From Crocinitomicaceae bacterium (lineage in GTDB: Bacteria > Bacteroidota > Bacteroidia > Flavobacteriales_D > Crocinitomicaceae): a stretch of DNA of 64,000 nucleotides. The notes under the pieces are model-generated. The model searched no databases, had not been told where the DNA came from, and was given only the letters and a program-made list of their open reading frames with translations. This document shows positions 7,052 to 11,388 of this stretch, in pieces. The stretch covers positions 1 to 64,000 of the forward strand of contig JAQXBM010000032.1 in assembly GCA_029252405.1 (NCBI GenBank), written 5' to 3'. The position numbers were made by a program, and so were the translations under genes. Positions within the stretch are counted from its first letter, which is position 1. Each line of letters opens with the position of its first letter.

Positions 7052-7786
7052 TTATGCTTTCGAATTGGAAGTGGCAGTTACTGCTAAACCATAAACAACA
7101 AGTCCAAAACCAATTTTATTGATTGCATCACCAATGTTGTAGATAACATCCATATTTAATCCACTAAACCAACCTTCGTACCATCCTGGTGTTCCAGCCA
7201 TATAACCAAGAGGGTAAATTGCCCATCCGGCTAACACAAACCAGCAAAGTGTTTTGTGAGCGCGCAATACGGCTCCACCAGCTTGTTCTGCTAATTTTTT
7301 CGCTTCTCCCATCCAAATGATGTAGACGATTGCGAAGTAAGCAATACCAGAGATTAATCCCCACACCCATGCTTGGCTTCTGTAAACTGCCTCGCCGAAG
7401 TAGCCTGTGACTAACATTACAACAGAGAGGAAAATTAATTTCCACATTAAAGATTTTTTAGCCCCTGCAGCTTTCAGAATTAAGTAGAATTCAACACACA
7501 TCAGTGGTACTGTAAGTATCCAATCTACATATCTGAAGAATGTGGGTGATTCTTCGTGTGCCGCCCAATAGTCGCGCATGTACCAATAGTGCACGGCGGC
7601 GATAAATGTAATCAATCCAGAAACTAGAATTGATGTTCTCCACTTTTTGTCGAAAGTATTTAAGGATAAAAAGAAAAATGCGGCGGCGGCCATCATAGCC
7701 ATGCATCCTACAAAGAACGTGAAGCCCACATAGTCGTCTGTTGCCATTTTACTAACATCGGCAAGCATAATAGTTAAAGATTCCAT
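7052..7786 (-). CDS. Proteorhodopsin, light-driven proton pump
   Basis: 244 residues with seven membrane helices. Helix C reads RYVDWILTVPLMCVEFYLIL. Asp88 (proton acceptor), Thr92 and Glu99 (donor) give the DTE pattern of outward proton pumps, not the NDQ pattern of sodium pumps. Position 96, equivalent to spectral-tuning residue 105 of the green SAR86 pigment, is Met, as in green-absorbing flavobacterial pigments. His66 matches the conserved His partner of the acceptor, and Lys224 in GDAINKIGFG binds retinal. The protein acts in the inner membrane to add to proton motive force in light. It is divergent from blh, which supplies the retinal. Carotenoid precursor genes (crtE, crtB, crtI, crtY) are not in this window. 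Confidence 0.96.
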   Translation of the reverse strand: MESLTIMLADVSKMATDDYVGFTFFVGCMAMMAAAAFFFLSLNTFDKKWRTSILVSGLITFIAAVHYWYMRDYWAAHEESPTFFRYVDWILTVPLMCVEFYLILKAAGAKKSLMWKLIFLSVVMLVTGYFGEAVYRSQAWVWGLISGIAYFAIVYIIWMGEAKKLAEQAGGAVLRAHKTLCWFVLAGWAIYPLGYMAGTPGWYEGWFSGLNMDVIYNIGDAINKIGFGLVVYGLAVTATSNSKA

Positions 7787-7893
7787 AAGTTGTATTTTTT
7801 TTGTTTAACATTTATGGTTTAAAGCTAAACATTTTTTGTTTAAAAAAAGTGAAAAAAAGTTAAACAAAAAGAGATTTTGTGTATGTTTGATAT
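7787..7893. promoter_or_regulatory. Divergent control region between proteorhodopsin and blh with TTTGTTTAA repeats
   Basis: TTTGTTTAAC (7800-7809) and its inverted copy GTTAAACAAA (7859-7868) flank a third copy, TTTGTTTAAA (7835-7844). Additional GTTTAA/TAAAC words lie between them. On the minus strand TAGCTTTA (7820-7827) could be the -7 element of the rhodopsin gene. On the plus strand TATGTTTG (7882-7889) matches TAnnTTTG but lies only 4 bp before the blh GTG. The repeats could be operators; no known consensus is matched. Confidence 0.5.
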
Positions 7894-8766
7894 GTGAAGT
7901 CCTCGGTTTTTAATTTAATATCAACAGTATTTTTGCTCTGGCTAACCATTCAGATTAGGTCAGATTACGAAGTATATTTGGCCTACTTTTTTGTTTTAAC
8001 TGTTGGTATAATGCACGGAGCAAATGATGTTGCCTTGATATCGATGATTGCCAGCAAAGCCGACAAATCGCTGCATAAATATTTGATATTCTACGTAAGT
8101 TTGATCATACTAACGACTGTTGCTTTTATTGTGATGCCAATTGGAGCACTTTTCGTGTTTATTGGTTTCAGTTGTTATCATTTTGGAGAACAGCATTTTA
8201 ACGATAAAGTAAAGGAAAACAACTACTGGGCGAAGCTACTTTACACATCTTATGGCGCATTAATTTTTGGTCTACTGTTTTCATTGAATACTGAGGGAAC
8301 TTCAACGATTATCAATGAACTGACAGGCGTCACATTCTCAGCGACTCATTTCCAGAGCTTCCTTATAATAGCGGCTGCATTGACAGCGATTTCTGTTTAT
8401 ATCAATTTGAAAAATTTTGAAAGTGGAATCAACTATTTTCAGGAGTTCTTTCTGATTTTGTTGATGAGTATATTATTCGAGTTAGCCTCTTTGTTGTGGG
8501 CATTTGCTATTTATTTCGTCATCTGGCATTCAATACCATCGCTGAAGGATCAAGTTGTTGTTTTGTATGGTAAGATGAATAGATCCAGTTTCTTAAAGTA
8601 TATGAAGTCATCAATTTTAAATTGGGTCATCTCAATTACTGGACTTATTATAGTTTATTATGTTTCAACGTTTCTGAAAATTAGTTTTATCACCCTGTTT
8701 TTTGCATTTCTCGCAGCCATAACTATTCCGCATGTGATTGTAATGTTCCATTTGAATAAGAAATGA
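7894..8766 (+). CDS. blh: Beta-carotene 15,15'-dioxygenase, Brp/Blh family
   Basis: 290 residues and strongly hydrophobic, with about seven to eight membrane segments. The Brp/Blh signatures are visible: GIMHGANDVALI near residue 38 (first His of the iron centre), CYHFGEQHF near 92, WHSIPSLKDQ near 210 and PHVIVMFHL at the end. The enzyme cleaves beta-carotene into two retinal molecules, the chromophore of the divergent proteorhodopsin. The GTG at 7894 is the first usable start after an in-frame TGA at 7888-7890. With a TAnnTTTG element just upstream, the mRNA may be leaderless or very short-leadered. Confidence 0.93.
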   Translation: MKSSVFNLISTVFLLWLTIQIRSDYEVYLAYFFVLTVGIMHGANDVALISMIASKADKSLHKYLIFYVSLIILTTVAFIVMPIGALFVFIGFSCYHFGEQHFNDKVKENNYWAKLLYTSYGALIFGLLFSLNTEGTSTIINELTGVTFSATHFQSFLIIAAALTAISVYINLKNFESGINYFQEFFLILLMSILFELASLLWAFAIYFVIWHSIPSLKDQVVVLYGKMNRSSFLKYMKSSILNWVISITGLIIVYYVSTFLKISFITLFFAFLAAITIPHVIVMFHLNKK

Positions 8767-8853: not shown

Positions 8854-9357
8854 CGGTTACATCGATTCAAGAAAACTACAGCATTGAAAACAGTTAACAT
8901 CAAGAAAGGCGAAATACTGCAGCACAAGGGCGGATTAAATTCCAAGATTTATATTGTGAAATAGGGACTGCTGCGAAGCTACACCATCGACGATGAAGGG
9001 AAAGAACACATTTACGTGTTTGCTCCGGAAAAGTGGACGATGAGCGATAGCGCGCAACCCGATGAACCCAACGAGCTATTTATTGATGCCTTGGAAGATT
9101 CGGTCGTTACTGTTTTAGATAAGAACCTCTATGAAGATGATTTTGATAGAAAAGCAATCATAAAACGGCTTGGAGTACTTCAAAAAAGAATCATTATGCT
9201 GATGAGTGCTTCTGCCATAAAACGCTACGAACATTTTGTTGAAACCTACCCCAATATTGTTCAAAGAGTGCCGCAAAGAATGATCGCCTCTTATCTCGGA
9301 GTAACACCTGAAACCCTCAGCGCAGCGAAAAAGAATGCGCTCAAGAAAAGCAAATAG
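8854..9357 (+). pseudogene. Crp/Fnr-family regulator remnant with in-frame amber stop
   Basis: A single frame from about 8854 to TAG 9355-9357 encodes a cyclic-nucleotide-binding-like fold. It reads LKTVNIKKGEILQHKGGLNSK, then IYIVK, TAG at 8962-8964, and GLLRSYTIDDEGKEHIYVFAPEKW, and ends in a helix-turn-helix (QRMIASYLGVTPETLSAAKK). Only the 9016-9357 part is free of stops. About 20 N-terminal residues expected in the family, with a start codon, are also missing. The amber sits where relatives have Lys or Gln, so a single substitution explains it. It lies upstream of the pirin and FMN reductase genes, which share an operator-like palindrome and may have been its targets. Confidence 0.7.
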
Positions 9358-9362
9358 TCGAT

Positions 9363-9381
9363 TTCTTATGAAATCATAATG
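9363..9381. promoter_or_regulatory. Shared 19-bp operator-like element, copy 1 (pirin)
   Basis: TTCTTATGAAATCATAATG, containing the palindrome TTATGA-AA-TCATAA, lies 66 bp (start to start) before the pirin ATG. An identical copy lies at 10315-10333. Confidence 0.65.
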
Positions 9382-9428
9382 CACAGCCTTCATACCTTAT
9401 TGATCTTTGTCATAGATGTACAACTGAG

Positions 9429-10295
9429 ATGAAAGAACATAAGATTATAGATAAGATAGTTTCCGCGAAGTCGGTGAAAATGGGGTCGGATTTATTGAAA
9501 CAACTGCTTCCTTATGAGGCAATAGATCAAATCGATCCTTTTTTACTCATTCAGCACGGAGCCGGACAATTAAAGGGGAATACACATCCTAAAAATGTGG
9601 GCGTAGGTCCTCATCCGCACAGAGGATTTTCACCAGTAACGTTTGTATTTAAGGGCAGCGTACACCACAGAGATTCCGCCTACAACAGCGGTGTAGTAGA
9701 TGCAGGAGGTACGCAGTGGATGCATGCAGGAAGTGGCATAATTCATAGCGAAAGACCTGGAAAAGAGTTCGCAGAGAGCGGCGGAGAAAATGAGTTTATT
9801 CAGTTTTGGGTGAATTCACCAGCCAAGAACAAGATGGATGCTCCGAGCTACCAAGCGATTTGGAAAGAAGAAACTCCAGTAGTTACCAAAGATGCAGCTG
9901 AGATAGCTGTTGTGGCAGGCGATTTCGAGGGGACAGTTGGACCTGCAAATACCTTAACACCACAAACCCTCCTGCGAATCAACGCGGAAAAAGGAGTGGA
10001 TTTTTCATTTGAGATTCCACAAGAATTTAATTGCTTGATTTATCTGCTTGACGGTGAACTTGAAATCAACGATCAACAAGTGCGCGCAGAGCAAATGATT
10101 TACTTTGAACGCAAAGGAGAGGTCATTCGCATAAAGGCTGCTGAGAATGCACGCGCCATGCTTTTGTCTGGAGAACCAATCGGTGAGTCAGTTTCTTCTT
10201 ATGGACCCTTCGTGATGAATACTCAAACGGAAATTATGGAAGCGCTGAGAGATAGTCAAGCAGGCAAGATGGGTGTACTTATTGAGCAATTCTAA
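9429..10295 (+). CDS. Pirin family protein
   Basis: 288 residues of bicupin type. The N-terminal cupin has the metal-binding motif HPHRGFSPVTFVF (two His) and HHRDSAYNSGVVDAGGTQWMHAGSGIIHSE, with the later His and Glu ligands. The C-terminal cupin follows (ELEINDQQVRAEQMIYF). Bacterial pirins bind iron or another metal, and some have quercetin 2,3-dioxygenase activity; their physiological role is often redox or electrophile stress. Cytoplasmic. It is preceded by the 19-bp element shared with the FMN reductase gene downstream. Normal length, no defects seen. Confidence 0.92.
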   Translation: MKEHKIIDKIVSAKSVKMGSDLLKQLLPYEAIDQIDPFLLIQHGAGQLKGNTHPKNVGVGPHPHRGFSPVTFVFKGSVHHRDSAYNSGVVDAGGTQWMHAGSGIIHSERPGKEFAESGGENEFIQFWVNSPAKNKMDAPSYQAIWKEETPVVTKDAAEIAVVAGDFEGTVGPANTLTPQTLLRINAEKGVDFSFEIPQEFNCLIYLLDGELEINDQQVRAEQMIYFERKGEVIRIKAAENARAMLLSGEPIGESVSSYGPFVMNTQTEIMEALRDSQAGKMGVLIEQF

Positions 10296-10314
10296 TTCAG
10301 GAAGGAAGAATCAC

Positions 10315-10333
10315 TTCTTATGAAATCATAATG
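10315..10333. promoter_or_regulatory. Shared 19-bp operator-like element, copy 2 (FMN reductase)
   Basis: Identical to 9363-9381, and 67 bp before the ATG at 10382. A TACGTTGT element at 10360-10367 may be the -7 box. Confidence 0.65.
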
Positions 10334-10381
10334 TTATTAACCACTGAACGAAAGAAATTTACGTTGTAAAACAGAAAAATT

Positions 10382-10936
10382 ATGCCGAAAAATATTATCG
10401 CCTTTGGAGCTTCAAACAGCAAACAATCCATTAACCAGCAATTCGCGCAATTTGCGGCGAGCGAACTAGAGAATGTAGAAACCGTAATTCTTGACTTGAA
10501 CAACTTTGAGTTGCCTTTGTATTCTATTGATTTAGAAAAGGAGTCGGGAATTCCGAGCAACGCAACCAGGTTTTCGGAGTTCATCAAAAATTCCGATGGT
10601 GTGATCATCTCGCTTGCAGAACACAACGGTTTACACACATCCGTTTTTAAGAACCTCTGGGATTGGTTGTCGAGAATTCCATCAGAAAAACCCATGAACA
10701 TCTGGGATAACAAAGCAATGTTCTTGTTGTCAACCAGTCCAAGCAAACGACCAAGTAGCAACGTGAGAAGGGTGTCGAAAGAATTGTTTCCACATTTCGG
10801 AGCAAACATTGTCGCTGATTTTCACTTGCCTTCATTCAATCACTTTTTCAAAGATGGAGAGATTAGTGAACCAGAGCAGAAGGAGTTATTCAATCAGGAA
10901 AAAATCAAATTTCAAACATATTTAAACAACAACTAG
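10382..10936 (+). CDS. NADPH-dependent FMN reductase family protein
   Basis: 184 residues with a flavodoxin-like fold. The phosphate-binding loop FGASNSKQSINQQFA is at residues 8-22, VILDLNNFELPLYSIDLE near 37-54, and the flavin/dimer motif GVIISLAEHNGLHTSVFKNLWDW near 79-101. These proteins reduce FMN, quinones, azo compounds or chromate with NAD(P)H in the cytoplasm. It shares an upstream element with pirin and runs directly into the next membrane-protein gene (1-nt gap), so it likely belongs to an electrophile or oxidative-stress group. Substrate is unknown. Confidence 0.88.
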   Translation: MPKNIIAFGASNSKQSINQQFAQFAASELENVETVILDLNNFELPLYSIDLEKESGIPSNATRFSEFIKNSDGVIISLAEHNGLHTSVFKNLWDWLSRIPSEKPMNIWDNKAMFLLSTSPSKRPSSNVRRVSKELFPHFGANIVADFHLPSFNHFFKDGEISEPEQKELFNQEKIKFQTYLNNN

Positions 10937-10937
10937 C

Positions 10938-11388
10938 ATGAAAAACCTATCAGTATTGGTGAAGGTATCGGCCGTTTTATGGATCATTTGGGGGGCTCGT
11001 GCACATTCTTGCAGGAGTGCTGACGATGAAAGGAATACTCACCAAAGACATTTCTGCGTCCGTGGCTGGAATTTCAGGTGCAATTGAACCAAGTACATTA
11101 AAAGCTGATTATCCAGATGCATCAGAAGCAATCATTGGACAACATGGATTCAACCTATTTTGGATCGGAGTAGTCACGCTTAATTCCGGATTCTTCGTTT
11201 GGAAAGGAAACAAAAATGCAATTTTCTTAGCGGCCATTACTGGTGGCTTGGCAGATTTGGGGTACTTCCTATTTATGGATTTAGGAGGATATGTGAATTT
11301 CATGCCGGGAACATTAATGACAATCGTTTCGGCACTCGCGATAATTGCGAGTTTCTACTATTATTTCAAACAACGCAGTTTGAATTAA
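10938..11388 (+). pseudogene. Small integral membrane protein, frameshifted at a G6 run
   Basis: ATG at 10938 directly follows the FMN reductase stop and encodes MKNLSVLVKVSAVLWIIWG. The frame then breaks at GGGGGG, 10990-10995. With five Gs the sequence would continue LVHILAGVLTMKGILTKD and run on to TAA 11386-11388 as a 149-residue protein with four membrane helices. The downstream part alone is open from GTG 10999. This may be a true mutation, a phase-variable homopolymer or a sequencing error. The family resembles small DoxX-neighbour membrane proteins, but no function is assigned. Confidence 0.7.

Follow-up and report, generated by a model that had tools for sequence, protein, structure and literature searches.

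A duplicated 19-bp palindrome as the probable operator of an adjacent, interrupted Crp/Fnr-type regulator in a Crocinitomicaceae bacterium, and a regulator-operator-target layout in Bacteroidota

The 19-bp element TTCTTATGAAATCATAATG, which stands before a pirin gene and an FMN reductase gene of a Crocinitomicaceae bacterium, is, judging from the sequence, very probably the operator of the adjacent Crp/Fnr-type regulator (8884-9357) and would serve the class II activation of both genes. The window, that is, the whole stretch of DNA that was analysed, comprises 64,000 nucleotides (contig JAQXBM010000032.1), and all coordinates refer to it. More broadly, the analysis revealed a regulator-operator-target layout whose specificity rule can be read from sequence. 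Because regulator genes of this class have an operator just past their own stop codon, the adjacent gene is very probably the cognate regulator.

Exact copies of the element occupy positions 9363-9381 and 10315-10333, both on the + strand, as was reported in the preliminary description; no third match with up to 3 mismatches was found in the whole window (0.06 expected), and a two-copy outcome occurred in 0 of 100 dinucleotide shuffles of the window. The inner part, TTATGA-AA-TCATAA, had been described as a palindrome, which is correct except for the two central bases, and the -41.5 geometry of both copies speaks for its function. The 14-mer core TTATG-AAAT-CATAA has 5/5 matching arm pairs, 5-bp arms, a 4-bp spacer and TT...AA ends, which is the symmetry of Crp/Fnr-type sites. 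It lies at 9366-9379 in the first copy (flanks TTC and TG, centre 9372.5) and at 10318-10331 in the second (centre 10324.5). The sequence identity of the two copies stops at the flanks.

The first base of the element precedes the ATG of each gene by 66 and 67 bp, respectively, and both gene assignments made earlier were confirmed with Pfam: a pirin family protein (9429-10295, + strand, PF02678/PF05726, Pirin/Pirin_C) and an NADPH-dependent FMN reductase family protein (10382-10936, + strand, PF03358, FMN_red). Putative -7 boxes were found at the expected place in both promoters, namely GATCTTTG at 9402-9409 (+) for pirin and GAAATTTA at 10354-10361 (+) for FMN reductase, with one and two mismatches to the Bacteroidota sigma-A consensus TAnnTTTG, respectively. 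The second box is the weaker one, with TTTA instead of TTTG; TTTA boxes were likewise found in the relatives L147, L148, L389 and L394. For CRP and FNR, a site centred at -41.5 is in the class II activator position. In both window promoters, the -7 box ends, with the G in the case of pirin, exactly 36.5 nt from the palindrome centre. Since this box spans -12 to -5 (PMC9723704), such spacing puts the centre at -41.5, the predicted class II position. The exact coincidence of this geometry in both copies supports the earlier proposal of one regulator for both genes.

Directly downstream, a gene of a DoxX-like membrane protein (10938-11388, + strand) consists of two open frames one base apart, with the frameshift in a G run around 10991-10996. 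Possibly, it is the third gene of the group. Its frameshift adds a second lesion to this cluster of genes and may have arisen in assembly. A 68% identical protein is encoded near a related regulator (L392).

A search of the whole 4.28-Mb genome, suggested in the preliminary description, was run, and the exact 14-mer occurs only at the two places in the window. When up to 2 mismatches were allowed, 88 matches were obtained versus 61 for a reversed control pattern. The pattern TTATGN4CATAA is present at 5 places in the genome versus 6 for its reversed-pattern control, i.e., without excess, and therefore no further regulon targets are claimed; among these 5 places, only the two window copies are followed by a promoter box with the required spacing.

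The regulator gene (8884-9357, + strand) starts with TTG, contains one in-frame TAG (8962-8964, +), seen in the translation and counted once in a profile search of the genome, and encodes the recognition helix TPETLSAAKKN. Its attribution to the Crp/Fnr family in the preliminary description proved right: the match to PF00027 (cNMP_binding), read across the TAG, reaches 31.6 bits at a cut-off of 27.5. The product matches the profile of its relatives at model positions 24-192, and this profile aligns with FNR through the recognition helix. Thus, the cyclic nucleotide-binding domain and the C-terminal helix-turn-helix are both there, and the reading frame is interrupted. In the part downstream of the TAG, identity to the best relatives reaches 67%.

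The same gene had also been called decayed. This is true with regard to the single in-frame TAG, the only lesion seen in the regulator, and does not hold as a statement of broad decay. After the TAG, the frame departs from its relatives at 2 of 48 conserved columns, and the 31 relatives themselves depart at 0-6 of 48-50. The start codon is of a kind common in the subfamily: the codon aligned with the window TTG is ATG, TTG or GTG in 18 of 19 genes, window included (20 of 32 loci entered this comparison, one of them without a match there), and the idea of a lost N-terminus, based on the lack of an ATG, was rejected. Apparent TTG or GTG starts with stop codons just upstream were noted in L382, L383, L384, L387 and L389 as well as at window position 8884, and therefore such regulators may be annotated short or missed. 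The near-intact conserved columns together with two perfect operators indicate either a recent lesion or an assembly error, so the interrupted gene is either a very recent pseudogene, whose operators have not eroded, or an artefact of assembly. As a consequence of the interruption, the circuit may be dead in this genome. There is also a substantial, if tentative, possibility that the operators are real and the regulon is fully alive, with both the TAG and the frameshift of the DoxX-like gene introduced by sequencing or assembly. The presence of only one lesion in a gene that is otherwise well preserved (changes at 2 of 48 conserved columns), the location of the second lesion in a run of G and the perfect state of both operators agree with sequencing or assembly errors, but nonsense codons arise by real mutation, too. 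Just upstream of the regulator, in window 7052-8766, a bacteriorhodopsin-like gene (PF01036, - strand) is divergent to a beta-carotene dioxygenase gene (PF15461, + strand), a pair that unites a light-driven pump with a retinal-making enzyme.

The layout was studied with 231 distinct regulator genes, of which 146 form set 1 (genus, family and flanks of pirin loci) and 85 form set 2 (40 genomes across the class); a few places with the weakest profile matches were left out of the collection. In most related regulator genes inspected, the DNA past the stop codon contains a palindrome of like structure with other letters. In set 1, inverted repeats are enriched between -5 and +50 of the stop codon and with even spacers only (62% vs 31% in shuffles for spacer 2 and 61% vs 34% for spacer 4). 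Two control regions were close to shuffles, with values inside the gene of 32% vs 23% for spacer 4 and 30% vs 19% for spacer 9. A palindrome TTnnn-N4-nnnAA, in which 4 or all 5 of the arm pairs match, is present in 102/146 genes of set 1 and in 51/85 of set 2, which is the replicate, as the criterion was fixed after viewing set 1. The G of a TTTG is located exactly 36.5 nt from the centre of 68 of these 102 palindromes and of 28 of the 51; other distances are rare, and five further palindromes of set 2 have TTTG at 37.5 nt. Conversely, when the first A..TTTG box was taken as an anchor, the palindrome was centred at -41.5 in 63/113 (set 1) and 26/55 (set 2) cases, and shifting the anchor by 1-8 nt left 0-2 and 0-6 palindromes, respectively.

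A strict test, in which the site had to lie within 140 bp past the stop and to be centred at -41.5 or -42.5 relative to an A..TTTG box, was passed by 100 of the 231 regulator genes. The other 131 fail, so the layout is common, not universal. Passing genes were distributed by the orientation of the neighbour as follows: codirectional 97/203, opposed 2/21 and unassigned 1/7. Other open reading frames of the same loci (945 frames of at least 150 aa, called mechanically, so that some are not real genes) yielded one pass, and this one, L045, is a copy of the regulator L149, hence the background is 0/944. Autoregulation through the regulator's own promoter was rejected as a general feature (1/226 pass). 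The first window site belongs to the layout, being an operator within 140 bp past the stop, at the -41.5/-42.5 position and before a codirectional target. A second codirectional operator with a promoter box is found in the window alone among the 100 units, within the flanks covered; at the locus L313, a second site is oriented oppositely and has one mismatched arm pair.

The genes downstream of the operators (n=98) include 11 SRPBCC/polyketide-cyclase-like, 10 DinB_2, 4 YceI, 4 DUF4345, 4 CMD and 4 DJ-1/PfpI genes, which would seem to have small stress or detoxification functions. Regulators with an EFLS[A/H/N/S] helix (L065, L067, L068, L069, L071, L077 and L082) are followed after the stop by two direct copies of about TTAANCTACCTTA, some 20-25 nt apart, in place of the single palindrome at -41.5; perhaps, these paired copies represent another operator layout.

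The letters of the operators follow the recognition helix. This was established on 102 sites having a palindrome and TTTG at 36.5 or 37.5 nt. When helix position 3 is E and position 7, which we take to be the residue aligned with CRP 185, is R, 49 of 50 cases have TTG in one or both half-sites; with E at position 3 and a residue other than R at position 7, TTG is absent in 13 of 14 (Fisher 1.5e-11). Set 2 taken alone gave 13/13 and 3/3, respectively. With one vote given to each combination of 50%-identity cluster and helix class, the counts were 26/1 vs 8/22 (p 5e-8); some of the "other" helices (the TNFSK and YxxSR groups) have G at base 3 and weigh against the rule in its simple form. Other helices have operators of their own: VxxSR is combined with TTAAC, TTATC or TTTAC, QxxSR with TTACC, TTAAC or TTCAC, TxxSK mostly with TTGGT and YxxSR with TTGCC. 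The window helix TPETLSA, without R at position 7, goes with a TTA half-site, as the rule expects. Bases 4 and 5 of its half-site (TTATG) occur in no other case of those seen and A at position 7 in no other helix, so the match at bases 4 and 5 is left without support from parallels. A separate case is L076, whose helix SRETLSRIRNQ has R at position 2, presumably as in E. coli CRP, and whose site GTGACAATTGTCAC has a GTGAC half-site like that of CRP.

From 79 candidate places, 31 genes were taken as closer relatives of the window regulator. They are 47-67% identical to it in the part downstream of the TAG and overlap set 1 (L146-L151; L400-L402 are identical with L195, L218 and L213). An operator of the layout type was found in 27 of the 31, with a TTG half-site in 7/7 that have R at helix position 7 and in 0/20 without it. 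A tree of 32 rows implies about four changes each of helix and operator and one independent pair on well-supported branches, and this subset is therefore not significant by itself. The flanks TTC and TG of the 19-mer are both present in 18 of the 27 operators, which suggests that the 19-bp identity corresponds approximately to the length of the conserved element. The targets recur as well: FMN reductase is downstream in 5 of the 31, namely together with pirin in L147, L148 and L149 and further in L379 and L391, and the operators are of the kind that each helix predicts. For example, the helix TPEALSK of L149 is combined with TTAACCTATATTAA and the helix TPEALSR of L146 with TTGATGTACATCAA.

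Conservation of the exact element before pirin in relatives had been expected. A scan of 114 pirin loci with up to 2 mismatches gave, taken literally, a negative answer: the exact TTATGANNTCATAA is upstream of pirin in 0 of the 113 loci besides the window, 4 of which are further pirin-like genes from the genome of the window. Taken alone, this result looked like a refutation. However, where relatives combine an intact regulator with the same target gene, the position is occupied by a different operator, of the kind that their different helix would lead one to expect, and a change of operators along with the regulator would explain why the exact TTATGANNTCATAA is missing upstream of pirin elsewhere. 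In L085, another genome, the exact TTATGANNTCATAA (TTATGAGTTCATAA) is situated about 1.2 kb past a pirin start.

The preliminary description had left room for another protein using the site, and this is the weaker branch. According to it, the adjacent gene has a stop, so a Crp/Fnr paralogue of the same genome binds the orphaned sites. Indeed, both window operators are still perfect, and 8 other PF00027 matches reported in the search of the genome are without a stop, the nearest being 46% and 39% identical. Against this, the regulator profile matches 8 genes of the genome, the window gene among them. Of the other seven, three possess perfect operators at -41.5 with letters of their own (TTGATCTAAATCAA, TTGACAAATGTCAA and TTTACCTATGTAAA), two have imperfect operators and two none, and TTATG is in none of them. 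We find an orphan regulon of this type unlikely.

Explanations without a DNA-binding protein deserve still less credit. The location right after stop codons and the inverted repeat with a 4-nt loop are compatible with an RNA element, the terminator hairpin of the preceding gene, but the hairpin of the 19-mer has an energy of only -1.6 kcal/mol (-5.7 and -3.6 in the 48-nt contexts), the palindrome keeps a fixed position of -41.5 relative to the promoter that follows, with the above preference for codirectional over opposed neighbours, and its letters track the recognition helix of the regulator. The terminator was rejected on the grounds of energy, geometry and helix correlation as highly improbable. 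It is just as hard to believe in a short mobile or duplicated repeat devoid of a regulatory role: two identical copies near each other would fit it, but there is no other exact copy in 4.28 Mb, the identity does not continue into the flanks, both copies are at -41.5, and relatives keep the position and the flank pattern TTTC..TGC with different arms.

Returning to the operator of the adjacent regulator, the following mechanism may be proposed. The regulator would bind TTATG-N4-CATAA as a dimer, with one half-site for each recognition helix. In both promoters, that of pirin and that of FMN reductase, the dimer would be centred at -41.5 and would bring in RNA polymerase in the manner of class II activators, in response to a signal that it presumably senses. 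The operator lies between the regulator's stop codon and the first target, as in about half of the related genes with a codirectional neighbour, and the second copy would put FMN reductase under the same control. The unit in the window would be a two-target version of the layout, with an ETLSA/TTATG pair not seen elsewhere, possibly caught just after the loss of its regulator.

To our knowledge, the operators of Bacteroidota Crp/Fnr proteins mostly lack description, and the specificity of transcription factors is generally hard to predict from sequence. With the layout, genome sequences suffice to obtain regulator-operator pairs in large numbers (here 100 from 231 genes); it also names the gene that each regulator controls and offers a testable code that connects helix positions 3 and 7 with operator base 3. 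In our opinion, it is rather probable that the Crp/Fnr regulators of Bacteroidota represent a large set of self-contained units, each composed of a gene, a private operator after (and often overlapping) its stop codon and one target at -41.5, with letters readable from the helix. If so, the adjacent operator of each regulator would become a natural key to the DNA specificity of Crp/Fnr proteins in genomes generally. The literature searched, which covered only a minority of subscription journals and does not prove absence, nowhere presents such a layout as a general rule.

Among known systems, the Bacteroidota sigma-A promoter (PMC9723704) supplies the box that is downstream of the palindromes at a fixed distance; in the main text of that article, "Crp", "Fnr" and "palindrom" have 0 occurrences. 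The closest solved relative of the profile (E 1.3e-57) is the structure 3dn7, "Cyclic nucleotide binding regulatory protein", of 194 aa, with the helix TPEYLSEIRKK. The 3dn7 entry shows no operator; by the helix correlation, its operator should be of the TTAAA type. The box of E. coli FNR and DNR (TTGAT-N4-ATCAA) is, like that of the window, a 14-bp 5-4-5 inverted repeat with TT...AA ends, and TPExLSR of the relatives' profile aligns on the FNR helix TVETISR. One difference is the third base, A in the window and not G, which is consistent with A and not R at helix position 7; another is the short length of the regulators of the profile, about 160-200 aa. The regulators HcpR and HcpR2 are also of the Crp/Fnr family and adjoin their target (hcp) as here, and their motifs shift with helix residues 180 and 181; in the accessible part of that study (PMC1274295), an operator just past the regulator's stop is not described as a rule. 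Rodionov and colleagues correlated CRP residues 180 and 181 with operator bases and named 185 as the third DNA contact (PMC1274295, section 8). While the correlation in that text concerns 180 and 181, here it is the residue aligned with 185 that correlates with the third base.
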